From Xanthomonas sacchari (GTDB lineage Bacteria > Pseudomonadota > Gammaproteobacteria > Xanthomonadales > Xanthomonadaceae), in the NCBI RefSeq assembly GCF_024266585.1, contig NZ_CP100647.1, positions 4,755,001 through 4,819,000 on the forward strand: a stretch of 64,000 nucleotides of DNA. The letters are read 5' to 3'. Below, piece after piece: positions 50,571 to 54,835 of the stretch (within the stretch, counting starts at the first letter, position 1; each line of letters begins with the position of its first letter). The position numbers and the translations under genes are program-made. Under the pieces are notes generated by a model that did no database searches, was not told the DNA's origin, and saw only the letters and a list, made by a program, of their open reading frames with translations.

Positions 50571-51005
50571 TTGAAAAAGCCCTTGATCGTCACCTTGGAG
50601 GCCGCGTTCGCCGGACTGACGTTCCTTCCCTGGTTCGCGTGGGCGCACAACAGCCTGAACCCAAGACTGGTCCTGCACGCGGACCACGTGGAGTATCGCG
50701 TGCTGCGCACGCGCACCCGTCCCTACCGCGAGATCGCCAGGGTGGACTACCGAAAGGCATGGGGAACCGAGAACGTGGTACTGGAGTTCCAGCGGGCGAA
50801 GACGACCTTCATCGCCAACACCGGGCTGCTCCGGCGAACACGAGAGGCCATCGCCGTGTTGCACCGGCACGGTTGGGCGCGAACGCCATCGTTTCCCGGA
50901 CGTGTTTCCCTCGGATCTGCCGCGGTCGCTGCGGCTTGCGAATCATGGGCTTGGCATCGCGCCACCCACCGATGGAATGTCGGGCGGTTGACTTCAGTTG
51001 TTTAA
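50571..51005 (+). CDS. Small membrane-anchored protein of unknown function
   Basis: A 144-residue protein with one hydrophobic segment near the start (LIVTLEAAFAGLTFLPWFAWA). A PH-like pattern follows (LVLHADHVEYRVLRTRTRPYREIARVDYRKAWGTENVVLEFQ). The TTG at 50571 follows GGAG at eight bases; a GTG at 50559 is less well placed. The last 45 residues are atypical, lying close to the change in base composition at 51000, and may have been altered there. Confidence 0.5.
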   Translation: MKKPLIVTLEAAFAGLTFLPWFAWAHNSLNPRLVLHADHVEYRVLRTRTRPYREIARVDYRKAWGTENVVLEFQRAKTTFIANTGLLRRTREAIAVLHRHGWARTPSFPGRVSLGSAAVAAACESWAWHRATHRWNVGRLTSVV

Positions 51006-51060
51006 TTTAATTACACTAAATTCACTATCCCGGCAGCAGTTCACACAGGACATTAGAGAT

Positions 51061-51330
51061 ATGGGAAAGAAGAAGTCCACTGAAAGCCTGATTGCGGAAG
51101 CAGTTGCCAAGCTCGCGCAGGCTCAAGAGCAGATCCGCTCTGACGTGAATCGTCACGAGAAGATACTTGCAGTTCAGTCACTGCAGATCGATACGCTAGA
51201 ACGGAATGTGATGGAACTGCGGAACGCGGCCATCGCTGCGGAGTTGCGCCTTGGCACTCCCAACAAGGATGTGGCGGCAAAGTACGGTCTGTCTGCTGGG
51301 CGAATCTCTCAGATCAAGAGAGACCAATAG
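51061..51330 (+). CDS. Small coiled-coil/HTH protein
   Basis: An 89-residue acidic/basic protein. Residues 5-60 form a long helix, probably coiled coil (LIAEAVAKLAQAQEQIRSDVNRHEKIL). The C-terminus TPNKDVAAKYGLSAGRISQIKRDQ looks like a sigma-70 region 4-type HTH. No family is recognised. It follows an AT-rich promoter-like stretch (TTTAATTTAATTACACT) at the border of the low-GC segment. It is probably a regulator carried by the element. Confidence 0.65.
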   Translation: MGKKKSTESLIAEAVAKLAQAQEQIRSDVNRHEKILAVQSLQIDTLERNVMELRNAAIAAELRLGTPNKDVAAKYGLSAGRISQIKRDQ

Positions 51331-51365
51331 TCGACTGAGGCGGGGAACTGAAGGCCGTAGGGCTT

Positions 51366-51966
51366 TCAGCTCCCTCGGTTGACGCTGCCATGCTCGCGCC
51401 GCCCCTCGTACTCCTGCGACATGCGCTCCCAGGTCTCGGCGTCCAGGCGCGGCACCGGGCCGATGCAGGTCATCTCGCTGCGTCGGGCCAGGGCGTCGCG
51501 CCCGCCCATCGCCTGGACCGCATCGGGCGGCGACCGACGATCCACTCCTGGCCGAGGTAATGGCCGTCGCCCATACACCAGTCGATGAACTCCTGTCGGC
51601 CTTCGCCATCGGTGGCAAAGTGGCAGGCCATCATCAGGTCGCGCCAGCGATCGTGCTGCTTTTCGCCGAAGTCGCACGGGTCGAGTTGCGCCAGGGTCTC
51701 GGCCAGCTGTTCAGGCGTCAGCTCGCCCGCGCCGATCGCCTGCTTCTTGGCGCGATCCGCCCTGCGCGCCTCAGCTTCGGTCCGACGCGGATGTACTTCG
51801 GGCCACCGCCGCGGCAGCGATACCACGCCAACGTGGCGCGCTTCAGCCGCAGGAGCGCGGCGGCTTCCTCAGGCTTGACCATCGCCTCGTCGGGAAGCGC
51901 GTGCAGTTCGGCCAGCTCTTCGGGGTTGAGCTTCTTGGGTTCGGGGTAGTCACAGGCGTGCTCCAT
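51366..51966 (-). pseudogene. Frameshifted phage-type HTH/primase C-terminal remnant
   Basis: Read on the minus strand, an AlpA/HTH_17-like start (KPEEAAALLRLKRATLAWYR, frame from 51966) changes frame near 51770 into LTPEQLAETLAQLDPCDFGE and HDRWRDLMMACHFATDGEG, which resembles a PriCT primase C-terminal domain. It changes again near 51540 into DAVQAMGGRDALARRSEM and ends at 51366. Two frame changes and mixed domains show a decayed fusion of two phage replication genes. Confidence 0.6.
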
Positions 51967-52351
51967 CTCCAAGTTCCCATGGAGGCGGAATGCCGCCGGG
52001 GGACTGGGCCTGCTGTGCGTCGCAGAGATGGACTGCTCAGTTCGTCACTCTGGGCTGGCCTCGGCTGTTCTTGCCACCGAAAGCACTTCTGATCGCCATA
52101 GCCATTGCCGGCGATCCCGGACGGCCCGCGCGCTGATACCAGCACTTCGTCCAAGCTCCCCGGTGAGTCCGTGTCGCCCGATTCGGTCCGGGCTGCTCGG
52201 CATCAAGTCGCACGATCCGGGACGCGATACGGGCTGCCTGGCGAGCCTGTGCAGTCTTAATCGCTGCGACGCAGCAAGAGCAGACTTTTGACTTCGGACC
52301 TCCCGTCCCTGAATATCCATTCAGGAATGCCAACACACGGGGAAATGGATA
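51967..52351. other. Degraded accessory segment
   Basis: 385 bases between the remnant and the two-gene operon show no supported gene. Several short frames exist on the minus strand (for example GELGRSAGISARAVRDRRQW near 52150) with a hint of an HTH, but they lack starts and consistent composition. A promoter for the 52352 operon must lie here; no clear boxes. Confidence 0.4.
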
Positions 52352-53296
52352 ATGCCAGCAGACCAAACCACCAAGACGGTCTACTACCTACGCGCCAGAC
52401 GCGACGACCAGCCTTTTGACCTTCAGTCGATCGCAAAAAAGGCGCGAAGGAAAAAGAGCACCTGCGATGCAACCGAGATCGAGCTCGGCGGCGGAGACGT
52501 GGTGCGGATTCAGCACTTCAGCAATTCTAATGGGCGTACGCTGATGCACCTCACGCGATATGTTCCTGGCGTGCAGGCATCAACGCTCCAGCCCAAGGCG
52601 ACTACCGCCGAAGATGACGAAGGCGCCCAGCCGCCTCCGAGAGGCAAAGAATTCAAGGACGGAGACTGCTTCCTGCTACTGAAAGAACACCATGTCCTTT
52701 ATTGCGGGCACGGTATCAGCAAGAGCAAAGCGTCGCTGTACTTGTCCCAGCTTTTCAGGGAAGCAGAGCTTCATGATGAGTCCAGCGGCTTCGATCTGGT
52801 TCCTGCGAGCAACTTGGACAAGTTGCAACTGATCCAGGATCACGGCGTCAAGTCCATCCAACTGGCCGTGAGCGCCTTCGACCTGAGCTTGCCGAAGGCG
52901 CGCCGTACAAGTTGGATAGCAAAGTCTCTCGGTTCTCTCGGCGATGAGCTTGGCGCGCTAGTAAGCAAGGACCAGTCGCTGACCAAACAGAAGGCGCTGG
53001 AGGACCTCATCGTGAATGTTGAGGTCAAGCTGGACGGCAACACCCGTGCGATCCAGAGCTCTAAGGACTTTATCGAGGATCTCGCGGAGACGGTACTTGA
53101 TGACGACACCGAGACACCCGTAAGCGAGTTCACGATCATCACCCAGAAGAACGAACGCATCACTTCCGGGGAAATCCGACTTCAGACGGGCGTGAAGGTG
53201 GAAACGAAGGACAATTCCGTCAGTCACACCAGCGTATGGGGTGAGATGGGAATCTACTTTGACCAGATAACGCAGGGGAACCTGCTGGAGCAATGA
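52352..53296 (+). CDS. Soluble protein of unknown function, first gene of a two-gene operon
   Basis: A 314-residue protein I do not recognise. The N-terminal part is basic (IAKKARRKKST near 27-36), followed by GGGDVVRIQHFSNSNGRTLMHLTRYVPGVQ. An acidic/Pro linker (about 84-98) precedes FKDGDCFLLLKEHHVLYCGHGISKSKASLYLSQLF. A basic amphipathic stretch and a C-terminal beta-rich part, ETPVSEFTIITQKNERIT and VWGEMGIYFDQI, follow. No signal peptide, helix or nuclease motif is visible. It ends one base before the GTG of a membrane protein gene. Codon use is visibly less GC-biased than in core genes. A defence role is inference only. Confidence 0.75.
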   Translation: MPADQTTKTVYYLRARRDDQPFDLQSIAKKARRKKSTCDATEIELGGGDVVRIQHFSNSNGRTLMHLTRYVPGVQASTLQPKATTAEDDEGAQPPPRGKEFKDGDCFLLLKEHHVLYCGHGISKSKASLYLSQLFREAELHDESSGFDLVPASNLDKLQLIQDHGVKSIQLAVSAFDLSLPKARRTSWIAKSLGSLGDELGALVSKDQSLTKQKALEDLIVNVEVKLDGNTRAIQSSKDFIEDLAETVLDDDTETPVSEFTIITQKNERITSGEIRLQTGVKVETKDNSVSHTSVWGEMGIYFDQITQGNLLEQ

Positions 53297-53297
53297 C

Positions 53298-53795
53298 GTG
53301 CGTCCCCTCGAAGTTGACTGGAGCCGAATCGGGCTGTTCGCCGCGATCACCGCCGTTTCGGCGGTGATCGGTTGGTATGGGCAGCCATTCGTCCACGGTA
53401 ACGACGAAGCCCGCGGCGTCATCGTCAACGTATTCTCGATCCTGGCTGGCTTTCTCATCACAGTGATGACCCTTCTGGGCGAGCCCGGCCTATATCGAGG
53501 GCGCACGTGGCGTTCGGACGCCGTCAAGCGGAGCAACGTTTACCAGCGGCTCGTACGCCATAAGTGGCTCTTTATCTCCTACTTGATTGTGCTTGCGTTG
53601 GTCTTTCTGACGACCATCGTGGCCAAACGCGAGCCGGACGGACGACTGGTCACCTGCTTGGAAGCGCTTTATCTCGGCTTCGCTGCCTTCGCATTCATGT
53701 ACTCACTGATGCTTCCAAGCCGATTGCTGAATCTCCAGCTAGCGCGCTTCGACGAACTCGTGGAATCAAGGCGTAACGGTCAGAAGTCCGAATGA
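53298..53795 (+). CDS. Four-helix membrane protein, second gene of the operon
   Basis: A 165-residue protein with predicted helices at about 11-27, 41-61, 90-109 and 120-140, separated by a basic cytoplasmic loop (YRGRTWRSDAVKRSN) and followed by a C-terminal FDELVESRRNGQKSE. The GTG start is one base after the previous stop, with GGAG nine bases before, so the two proteins are coupled. No family is recognised by eye. The pair resembles in size the KwaA/KwaB proteins of Kiwa, but order is reversed and no shared motif was seen. Confidence 0.72.
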   Translation: MRPLEVDWSRIGLFAAITAVSAVIGWYGQPFVHGNDEARGVIVNVFSILAGFLITVMTLLGEPGLYRGRTWRSDAVKRSNVYQRLVRHKWLFISYLIVLALVFLTTIVAKREPDGRLVTCLEALYLGFAAFAFMYSLMLPSRLLNLQLARFDELVESRRNGQKSE

Positions 53796-53836
53796 TGATT
53801 CGGGAGGCGCAAGGCGCCTCCCGTTTAGTGGAGGTG

Positions 53837-54301
53837 CTACAGGCAAGCGCCAACCCATGCGTCCGCCACATTGTCCCGCCCCTCAAGGATGACGCTCTTT
53901 CCACCCGACACGAAGCGCCGGAAGCCTGTGTACCCTCCTAACTCGTTCTTGGCGTTGACCCAGCCACAGGCGACCACGCCGAACTCCTCGGTGTAGTTGG
54001 CACGCACGTCCCGGAACTGCGCGGCGTCCGGGTCCTTCAGCTCGTCCCTCACCGCGCGCTCGGCAGCCACGACCGTCTCGGCGCCGAACCACTTCTCCTG
54101 CTGCACCTTCTTCTCCGCGGCTGTTATGGGGCGCTCCGGCTCGGGCTTCGTTGCCTCGGGCTGCTGGGCCAGCTTCTGCTGCACCCCGGCTACTACTGCG
54201 GGCGCGGCGGCGGCGACAGCGGGCTCGCTGCGCGGCACTAGCTTCGACCCGACCCAGGCCAGGACCACCAGGACGACCAGAAAAACCCCTATCCGCTTCA
54301 T
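53837..54301 (-). CDS. Membrane-anchored protein with CGxVNAKN domain
   Basis: A 154-residue protein with one N-terminal helix (MKRIGVFLVVLVVLAWVGSKL), an Ala/Pro/Glu linker and a C-terminal domain (DPDAAQFRDVRANYTEEFGVVACGWVNAKNELGGYTGFRRFV) found in many phage and plasmid-borne periplasmic proteins. No catalytic role is known. Strong ribosome site GGGGGGGAG lies before the ATG. It converges with the two-gene operon. Confidence 0.75.
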   Translation of the reverse strand: MKRIGVFLVVLVVLAWVGSKLVPRSEPAVAAAAPAVVAGVQQKLAQQPEATKPEPERPITAAEKKVQQEKWFGAETVVAAERAVRDELKDPDAAQFRDVRANYTEEFGVVACGWVNAKNELGGYTGFRRFVSGGKSVILEGRDNVADAWVGACL

Positions 54302-54316
54302 GCACTCCCCCCCACG

Positions 54317-54490
54317 CAAACCTTCGTATCCAAGTGCGAGCGCGGGGAGAGGCGCATCGACGCCGTGGAACTGGTCGAGTTCGCCGAGGCGCTCGGCGTG
54401 CCGCCGCTCGGGCTGCTGGGCGAGTACCTGGAACAGCGTGCGGCCAGGCTGCAGCCGAAGTCCAGAAAGAGCAGCGCAAAGCGGCGCTAA
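54317..54490 (+). pseudogene. C-terminal fragment of an XRE-family regulator
   Basis: Plus-strand codons from 54317 read QTFVSKCERGERRIDAVELV then EFAEALGVPPLGLLGEYL, the end of a Cro/C1-type HTH and its usual following helix, ending in AKRR and TAA. The first two helices of the HTH are missing; upstream codons (ALPPT) are unrelated. It is therefore a truncated gene, ending ten bases before the tRNA-Thr 3' end. It overlaps the promoter of 53837. Confidence 0.7.
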
Positions 54491-54500
54491 CTAGGAGAGA

Positions 54501-54576
54501 TGGTGCCGCTTGTCCGAATCGAACGGACGACCTACTGATTACAAATCAGTTGCTCTACCGACTGAGCTAAAGCGGC
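54501..54576 (-). tRNA. tRNA-Thr (UGU)
   Basis: A 76-base gene including CCA: acceptor GCCGCTT pairing with AAGCGGC, D-arm GCTCAGTCGGTAGAGC, anticodon stem CTGAT/ATCAG around the anticodon TGT, T-arm GTCCG-TTCGATT-CGGAC. A TAGACTGC element (54626-54619) about 43 bases upstream may be its promoter -10. Its 3' end faces the low-GC segment. Confidence 0.97.
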
Positions 54577-54695: not shown

Positions 54696-54733
54696 TTACA
54701 AGACAGTTGCTCTACCGACTGAGCTAAAGCGGC
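54696..54733 (-). pseudogene. Half tRNA-Thr (5' half, through the anticodon loop)
   Basis: The same 5' sequence as the intact tRNA-Thr (GCCGCTTTAGCTCAGTCGGT...) runs through AGAGCAACTG, then TCTTGTAA and stops matching. A TAGACTGC promoter-like box lies 32 bases upstream. The 3' half is absent. It sits 119 bases upstream of the intact gene and marks either an old integration junction or a decayed tandem duplicate. Confidence 0.85.
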
Positions 54734-54835
54734 AAGATCGACGACGCCCGCGGGTGGGCCCGGGGCAGTCTAACCTGCTGGCGCGGGCCTCGACACGCCT
54801 GCCGGCGCGGCCTGCGCACCGGCAGGCGCGGCATT

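Follow-up and report, generated by a model that had tools for sequence, protein, structure and literature searches.

At positions 52352 to 53795 of the window, by which we mean the whole analyzed stretch of 64,000 nucleotides of Xanthomonas sacchari contig NZ_CP100647.1 (positions 4,755,001 to 4,819,000), lie two genes on the plus strand that are here called A and B. Gene A (52352..53296) starts with ATG and its open reading frame (ORF) encodes a predicted soluble protein of 314 residues; gene B (53298..53795), separated from A by one base, starts with GTG, encodes a predicted four-helix membrane protein of 165 residues and has the position of rexB in the rexAB operon of phage lambda. A ribosome-binding-site-like GGAG (53287..53290, plus strand) is located within the end of A, 7 bases 5' of the GTG of B, and a GGGGA is present 5' of A at 52339-52343. 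The guanine-cytosine (GC) content of the pair is 0.556-0.586 in six 500-base segments starting at 52250 to 53500, versus ~0.65-0.79 in most flanking segments, and there is a second low-GC patch (two segments over 50750-51499, GC 0.57). An earlier note, made from the sequence alone, had described the two reading frames, the GGAG and the lower GC content, and our coordinates and values agree with it. It had also called the pair unrecognised, which holds for both window proteins in Pfam, NCBIfam and PADLOC, where no family was matched (for A, in Pfam at E values up to 10). In PHROGs at E up to 1, window A matched only phrog_26543 and phrog_3482, both of unknown function.

A–B is a real, conserved, mobile two-gene unit. 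Eighty-seven loci (L numbers below) were collected through B: 34 from IMG/VR and 50 among 84,980 species genomes, both with B alignments, and 3 on PLSDB plasmids. L001, L039 and L040, which belong to the window's own genome or repeat the contig of L037, were left out, and some of the 87 are one contig reached via two collections. In PLSDB, window A recovered pairs in Ketogulonicigenium and Sinorhizobium and window B the same plus Shinella (five records, three of them retrieved). By record title, the loci from species genomes are mostly from Pseudomonadota, and they also include two metagenome-assembled genomes (MAGs) of Thermoanaerobaculia (L085 and L087; Acidobacteriota), a few Desulfobacteraceae, Desulfuromonas and other MAGs. 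As judged with the A profile, A is directly upstream of B on the same strand in 85 of the 87 loci, A being counted as upstream if its frame ends within 330 bases of the frame of B; in the remaining two, L051 and L083, the contig ends before A would start. The reciprocal search with the A alignment gave 14 loci, 6 on known contigs and 8 new, and B is downstream in all 14. The earlier note had named a lack of joint occurrence in other genomes as grounds for refutation, and these counts show the opposite. Furthermore, the distances among A and among B sequences correlate (Mantel r 0.904 for 71 distinct full pairs, with none of 2000 permutations reaching r), the set being the 76 of 88 loci, window included, that have both ORFs and an A of at least 280 residues, minus 5 duplicates. 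The family is sparse: it was found in 1 of 397 genomes of the order (A query) and 1 of 369 of the class (B profile), in both cases the window's own genome, and in 3 of 298 genomes of the genus of the Pseudomonas genome of L086, two of which were already known. A single A query from L086 had no match in viral contigs, and no title or abstract opening retrieved by a literature search names the family.

The length of A varies at a few loci. A is shortened in L006 and L047, and it is also cut in L058, L070, L074 and L089, where the contig stops within the gene or close to it. At L006 (1960-2704), B is intact and A is an 84-codon piece directly after a Mu-F-like head gene, an arrangement that appears from its sequence to be a recombination or truncation product. 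At L047 (788-1764; Paenochrobactrum), A is down to an ORF of 147 residues, and B is open and conserved.

Both genes are under purifying selection despite what we read as a decayed surrounding element. Relative to L042, which is 92% identical in DNA, 10 changes in A are non-synonymous and 37 are synonymous (ratio of non-synonymous to synonymous rates, dN/dS, 0.07), and the corresponding numbers for B are 5 and 43 (dN/dS 0.03); relative to L041, the numbers are 1 and 5 for A and 0 and 7 for B. Overall, the dN/dS of B ranges from 0 to 0.04. Based on this selection, the pair is probably still of use in the window genome.

RexAB was the first abortive-infection system to be tied to phage defence. 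In phage lambda, the DNA-binding sensor RexA is thought to activate the membrane protein RexB, which shuts the infected cell down, and to our knowledge the trigger of the system is still unknown. The predicted structure of A has the two-domain fold of RexA/RdgC, in which a central domain (approximately residues 152-264) lies between the two parts of a split globular domain (approximately residues 1-150 and 265-312), and lambda RexA likewise has a two-domain fold with a split globular domain. The A model was also matched in Foldseek, with E down to 4e-13, by BFVD entry A0A8S5S8L2 and four other uncharacterised phage proteins, which may be further proteins with the fold of A in uncharacterised tailed phages. 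Judged by profile searches, A is outside the lambda-type RexA family as the Pfam, PADLOC and PHROGs models define it: RexA was absent from the 21 Pfam and 2 PADLOC families that 34 A members matched at E up to 1 and from the 25 of 30 PHROGs listed for them, and in the control run for the PADLOC and PHROG libraries their models did match lambda RexA. DUF4747, to which a weak HHpred link is reported for the Rex-type systems of phages CarolAnn and Sbash, was not among the 21 Pfam families either, and a genome search for it was uninformative (0 of 143 genomes, and also 0 of 14 controls).

Directly downstream of A is the four-pass membrane protein expected of a RexAB-type operon. The AlphaFold2 model of B has helices at residues 8-32, 36-61, 71-111 and 116-164 (mean predicted local distance difference test score, pLDDT, 88.9), in agreement with the four helices given in the earlier note. 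Helix 2 carries a conserved FSILAG motif and is followed by a basic loop. In a 58-sequence alignment, F46, S47, I48, L49, G51, L53, Y95, S136 and P140 are invariant, six of them in the helix-2 motif, although some of these, S47 included, are variable in loci collected afterwards; FAILAG and MTVFAG occur among the loci of the reciprocal search. The window protein has 7 lysine or arginine and 2 aspartate or glutamate residues in the loop between helices 2 and 3, versus 0 and 2 between helices 1 and 2, 2 and 2 between helices 3 and 4, and 4 and 4 at the C-terminus, so that by the positive-inside rule both ends of B would be in the cytosol. The hhalign score of B against RexB was 20.7, compared to a maximum of 20.5 in 100 column shuffles, and the alignment was in register. 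A second comparison, by hmmsearch with the B profile, gave mixed results: 3 of 500 window-shuffles matched or beat gp43 of Gordonia phage CarolAnn and 16 matched or beat lambda RexB, but 490 and 446 did so for two other RexBs; for two KwaA controls 500 and 385 of the 500 were as good. A loose helix-2 pattern, chosen after looking, fits three RexBs and gp43 (e.g. GFLAAIITV, AILIAALTF and, in gp43, GVLLALCTL, which resembles helix 2 of B) and neither KwaA, and a related pattern, also chosen after looking, fits 55 of the 58 B sequences. We treat what these patterns share among the RexBs, gp43 and B as a lead only.

In its predicted structures and its operon anatomy, the pair resembles the wider RexAB-type class, and we consider it likely that A–B is a RexAB-type two-gene module for phage exclusion (abortive infection) that is carried as cargo by temperate phages and mobile elements and has been kept after its carrier decayed. 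The earlier note had suggested an anti-phage or membrane-disrupting pair, a suggestion that gains partial support because the predicted fold of A and the anatomy of the operon point to RexAB. By analogy, A would be the sensor and B the membrane effector. A would wait in the cytosol as a dimeric DNA clamp, its RexA/RdgC fold being predicted and its dimerisation and DNA binding suggested by RexA, and published Rex systems suggest that it could be activated by replicating or recombining phage DNA, by a phage protein or by a protein-DNA complex. Strict pairing, co-divergence and the RexAB precedent are consistent with A then engaging B, which may open or assemble a pore, and the membrane would depolarise or leak such that growth stops before phage progeny are made. 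For comparison we used the Rex and Kiwa literature (PMC12894663, PMC11077077, PMC12904381, PMC6426606 and PMC7542560). In the Pseudomonas putida system, which has the same anatomy, defence is reported to depend on both genes. The RexA-like protein of that system binds DNA and, when overexpressed, leads to growth arrest and membrane leakage via the membrane partner; defence was not regained when the first gene was put back (PMC12894663).

Several observations weigh against a RexAB-type assignment. Superposition of the A model onto RexA gives a root-mean-square deviation of 16.4 Å over the whole chain and so needs a reorientation of the domains, and RexA was not among the best 50 Foldseek rows for the model. 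Profile comparison of A with RexA by hhalign gave a probability of 0.2, with 25 of 100 shuffles as high, the RexA alignment being shallow (8 sequences; effective number of sequences, Neff, 2.4), and the C-terminal halves alone also failed (E 0.13). For B versus RexB, hhalign is marginal (probability 2.8, E 0.016), and with the B profile 490 and 446 of the 500 shuffles matched or beat two other RexBs. No sigma-70-like promoter was found in 52100-53900. Unlike in lambda, where rexAB is beside the CI repressor gene, no regulator was seen directly beside the pair in many loci; one is near it in L021 and L012 (PHROG match) and in L010, L013, L049, L022 and L066 (by eye or by cluster). The Rex-type pairs of Sbash and Butters and the P. 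putida pair also have no direct CI-repressor adjacency according to their published descriptions. Finally, in P. putida, the closest tested system, membrane damage occurred in a small subpopulation only, and two-hybrid assays there showed no binding between the two proteins (PMC12894663).

The main alternative within the RexAB-type class is a reversal of roles, by analogy with mycobacteriophage Butters, where gp30, which is like RexA, is sufficient to block phages and is countered by gp31, a four-pass membrane protein (PMC7542560). In that case A would itself be the effector against the virus, and B would anchor it at the membrane in an inactive state until the cell is infected. Strict A–B pairing would suit an effector and its restrainer too, but both genes are required in the systems of lambda, Sbash, CarolAnn and P. 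putida, where the membrane protein is the effector (PMC12894663), and at L047 and L006, each a single case, it is A that is shortened while B stays open. We regard reversed roles as unlikely. A phage housekeeping role, for example in the virion or as an accessory to lysis or to a holin, is more improbable still. It would be in keeping with the position of the pair inside the head gene cluster of Mu-like prophages and with the weak matches of a few B members to holin PHROGs (best phrog_3428; 3 of 33 members, E 5e-4). Against it, the insertion sites vary, being between minor head protein and head protease genes, before a probable tail gene, near regulators, on plasmids or beside AbiE or type I restriction genes; the pair is also present in plasmid and chromosome stretches without obvious phage nearby, and four A queries had no match in 50,697 phage records.

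A mechanism like that of Kiwa, to which the earlier note had drawn an analogy, is a further possibility to which we give very little weight. In it, B would sense phage at the membrane and A would bind the incoming phage DNA and block its replication, with neither pore nor host arrest. Kiwa itself works by membrane sensing and a block of phage-DNA replication (PMC12904381), and the anatomy is alike, in that a four-helix membrane protein is paired with a soluble protein of ~300 residues (~315 in A) that binds DNA in Kiwa and is a candidate to do so in A–B. However, the PADLOC KwaA and KwaB models match a Kiwa control locus but neither the window proteins nor 34 A sequences, hhalign gave probabilities of 0.1 for A versus KwaB and 0.2 for B versus KwaA (two Kiwa sequences each), and in Kiwa loci L091 and L092 the membrane gene comes first, while in A–B it is second. 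On the KwaA/KwaB (DUF4868) models, hhalign and gene order alike, membership of Kiwa was rejected, which leaves a possible functional analogy.

Comparison of RexAB-type module A–B with described systems gives a graded picture. Like A–B, lambda RexA/RexB (PF15969; PDLC02339/PDLC02340; phrog_12654/phrog_14878) has a soluble gene followed by a membrane gene and is carried by a temperate phage, but it belongs to different PHROGs, with no A–RexA profile similarity detected and only marginal similarity to RexB. P. putida RexABpp (PP_5643/PP_5644; PMC12894663) is a cryptic-prophage pair with a four-helix partner; RexApp-His is similar in size to A (37.5 kDa), and the likeness of RexApp to RexA was seen by HHpred and fold, not by BLAST, which we count as a likeness to A. 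RexBpp was compared with B by seven published residues only, the best gapless fit being 4 of 7, in L063, which is not from Pseudomonas. If RexABpp belongs to the same sequence family, A–B would be a member of an already described kind. CarolAnn gp44/gp43 and mycobacteriophage Sbash gp30/gp31 (the latter known from papers only) are also RexAB-type pairs with a four-pass membrane partner; they differ from A–B in their actinobacterial hosts, and the CarolAnn proteins belong to other PHROGs (phrog_36224 and phrog_38328). The CarolAnn proteins match no PADLOC model. Only five RexAB-like systems are counted as described in PMC12894663, and further RexA homologs in actinophages are listed in the RexA paper. 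More tentatively, there could be a broad modular class, with RexAB as one of its branches, whose members combine a DNA clamp of RexA/RdgC/CHL4 type with a four-helix membrane effector, both having drifted past sequence recognition; A–B would then be a widespread branch (71 distinct full pairs, Pseudomonadota to Acidobacteriota) on plasmids, Mu-like phages and an element with integrase and primase genes, often without the lysogeny repressor of lambda Rex. If the assignment is right, the pair would fill a gap in the defence catalogue, whose models do not match A–B, and the natural variation among its 71 or more distinct pairs from Gram-negative bacteria could be used to locate the surface with which A senses, the part of B that damages the membrane and the A–B contact.

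The pair is carried by temperate phages or prophages, as seen from the 34 loci in IMG/VR contigs and the phage genes that adjoin it. In a Mu-like prophage (L026; PHROGs assignments) it is between the genes for the minor head protein and the head maturation protease, with the portal gene nearby, and the same two head-gene neighbour clusters recur in L006, L031-L033, L076, L078 and L084. In L021-L023 and L066 it is near regulator, endolysin and terminase clusters, all three functions being assigned by PHROGs in L021 and the regulator in L012, and in L017, L024, L038 and L055 it is followed by a large ORF that by eye resembles a tail tape-measure gene. Defence-gene neighbours are single cases (L002 and L073) and carry no enrichment statistic. 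In K. vulgare, an annotated type I restriction cluster is ~1.4 kb from the pair. At L073 (1697-12341; Leisingera), a 1445-residue helicase and an adjacent 745-residue unknown protein are on one side and an AbiEi/AbiEii-type pair is on the other, and these surroundings may be a defence island.

The surroundings of the pair in the window include the remnants of its probable carrier. A primase fragment with a PriCT_2 match (51470..51826, minus strand; Pfam E 8e-5, above the cut-off) substantiates the broken primase of the earlier note, while the helix-turn-helix remnant named with it is represented by a short ORF, a probable carrier remnant, with a weak HTH_17 match (51718..51972, minus strand; Pfam E 6e-4, below the cut-off). 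The flanking transfer RNA (tRNA) gene that had been noted, tRNA-Thr (TGT), adjoins the element at 54501..54576 on the minus strand (ARAGORN, Rfam). In L041, from Luteimonas sp. BDR2-5, the DNA of the pair is 98.6% identical and the same tRNA is on the same side; upstream of A–B are an integrase (Arm-DNA-bind_3 and Phage_integrase) and a 674-residue Prim-Pol/PriCT_2/AAA primase. Left of A, from 50872 to 52120, the window matches L041 in four separate pieces only, and the L041 integrase has no blastn match anywhere in the window; on this basis we take the carrier to be a satellite-like element, now decayed in the window. No attachment-site-like copy of the tRNA region was found left of the element with exact 14- or 15-mers in the window or in L041. 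Within the second low-GC patch is an ORF of 110 residues (50998-51330, plus strand) with a weak match to sigma-70 region 4 (E 8e-4, below the cut-off), a region with no blastn match to L041. Convergent with B is a 160-residue ORF (53837-54319, minus strand) that has no Pfam match at E up to 0.01, appears lipoprotein-like by eye and has DNA matches in L041 and L042. The 5' half of the tRNA-Thr gene is repeated at 54697-54735, ~120 bp right of the intact copy.
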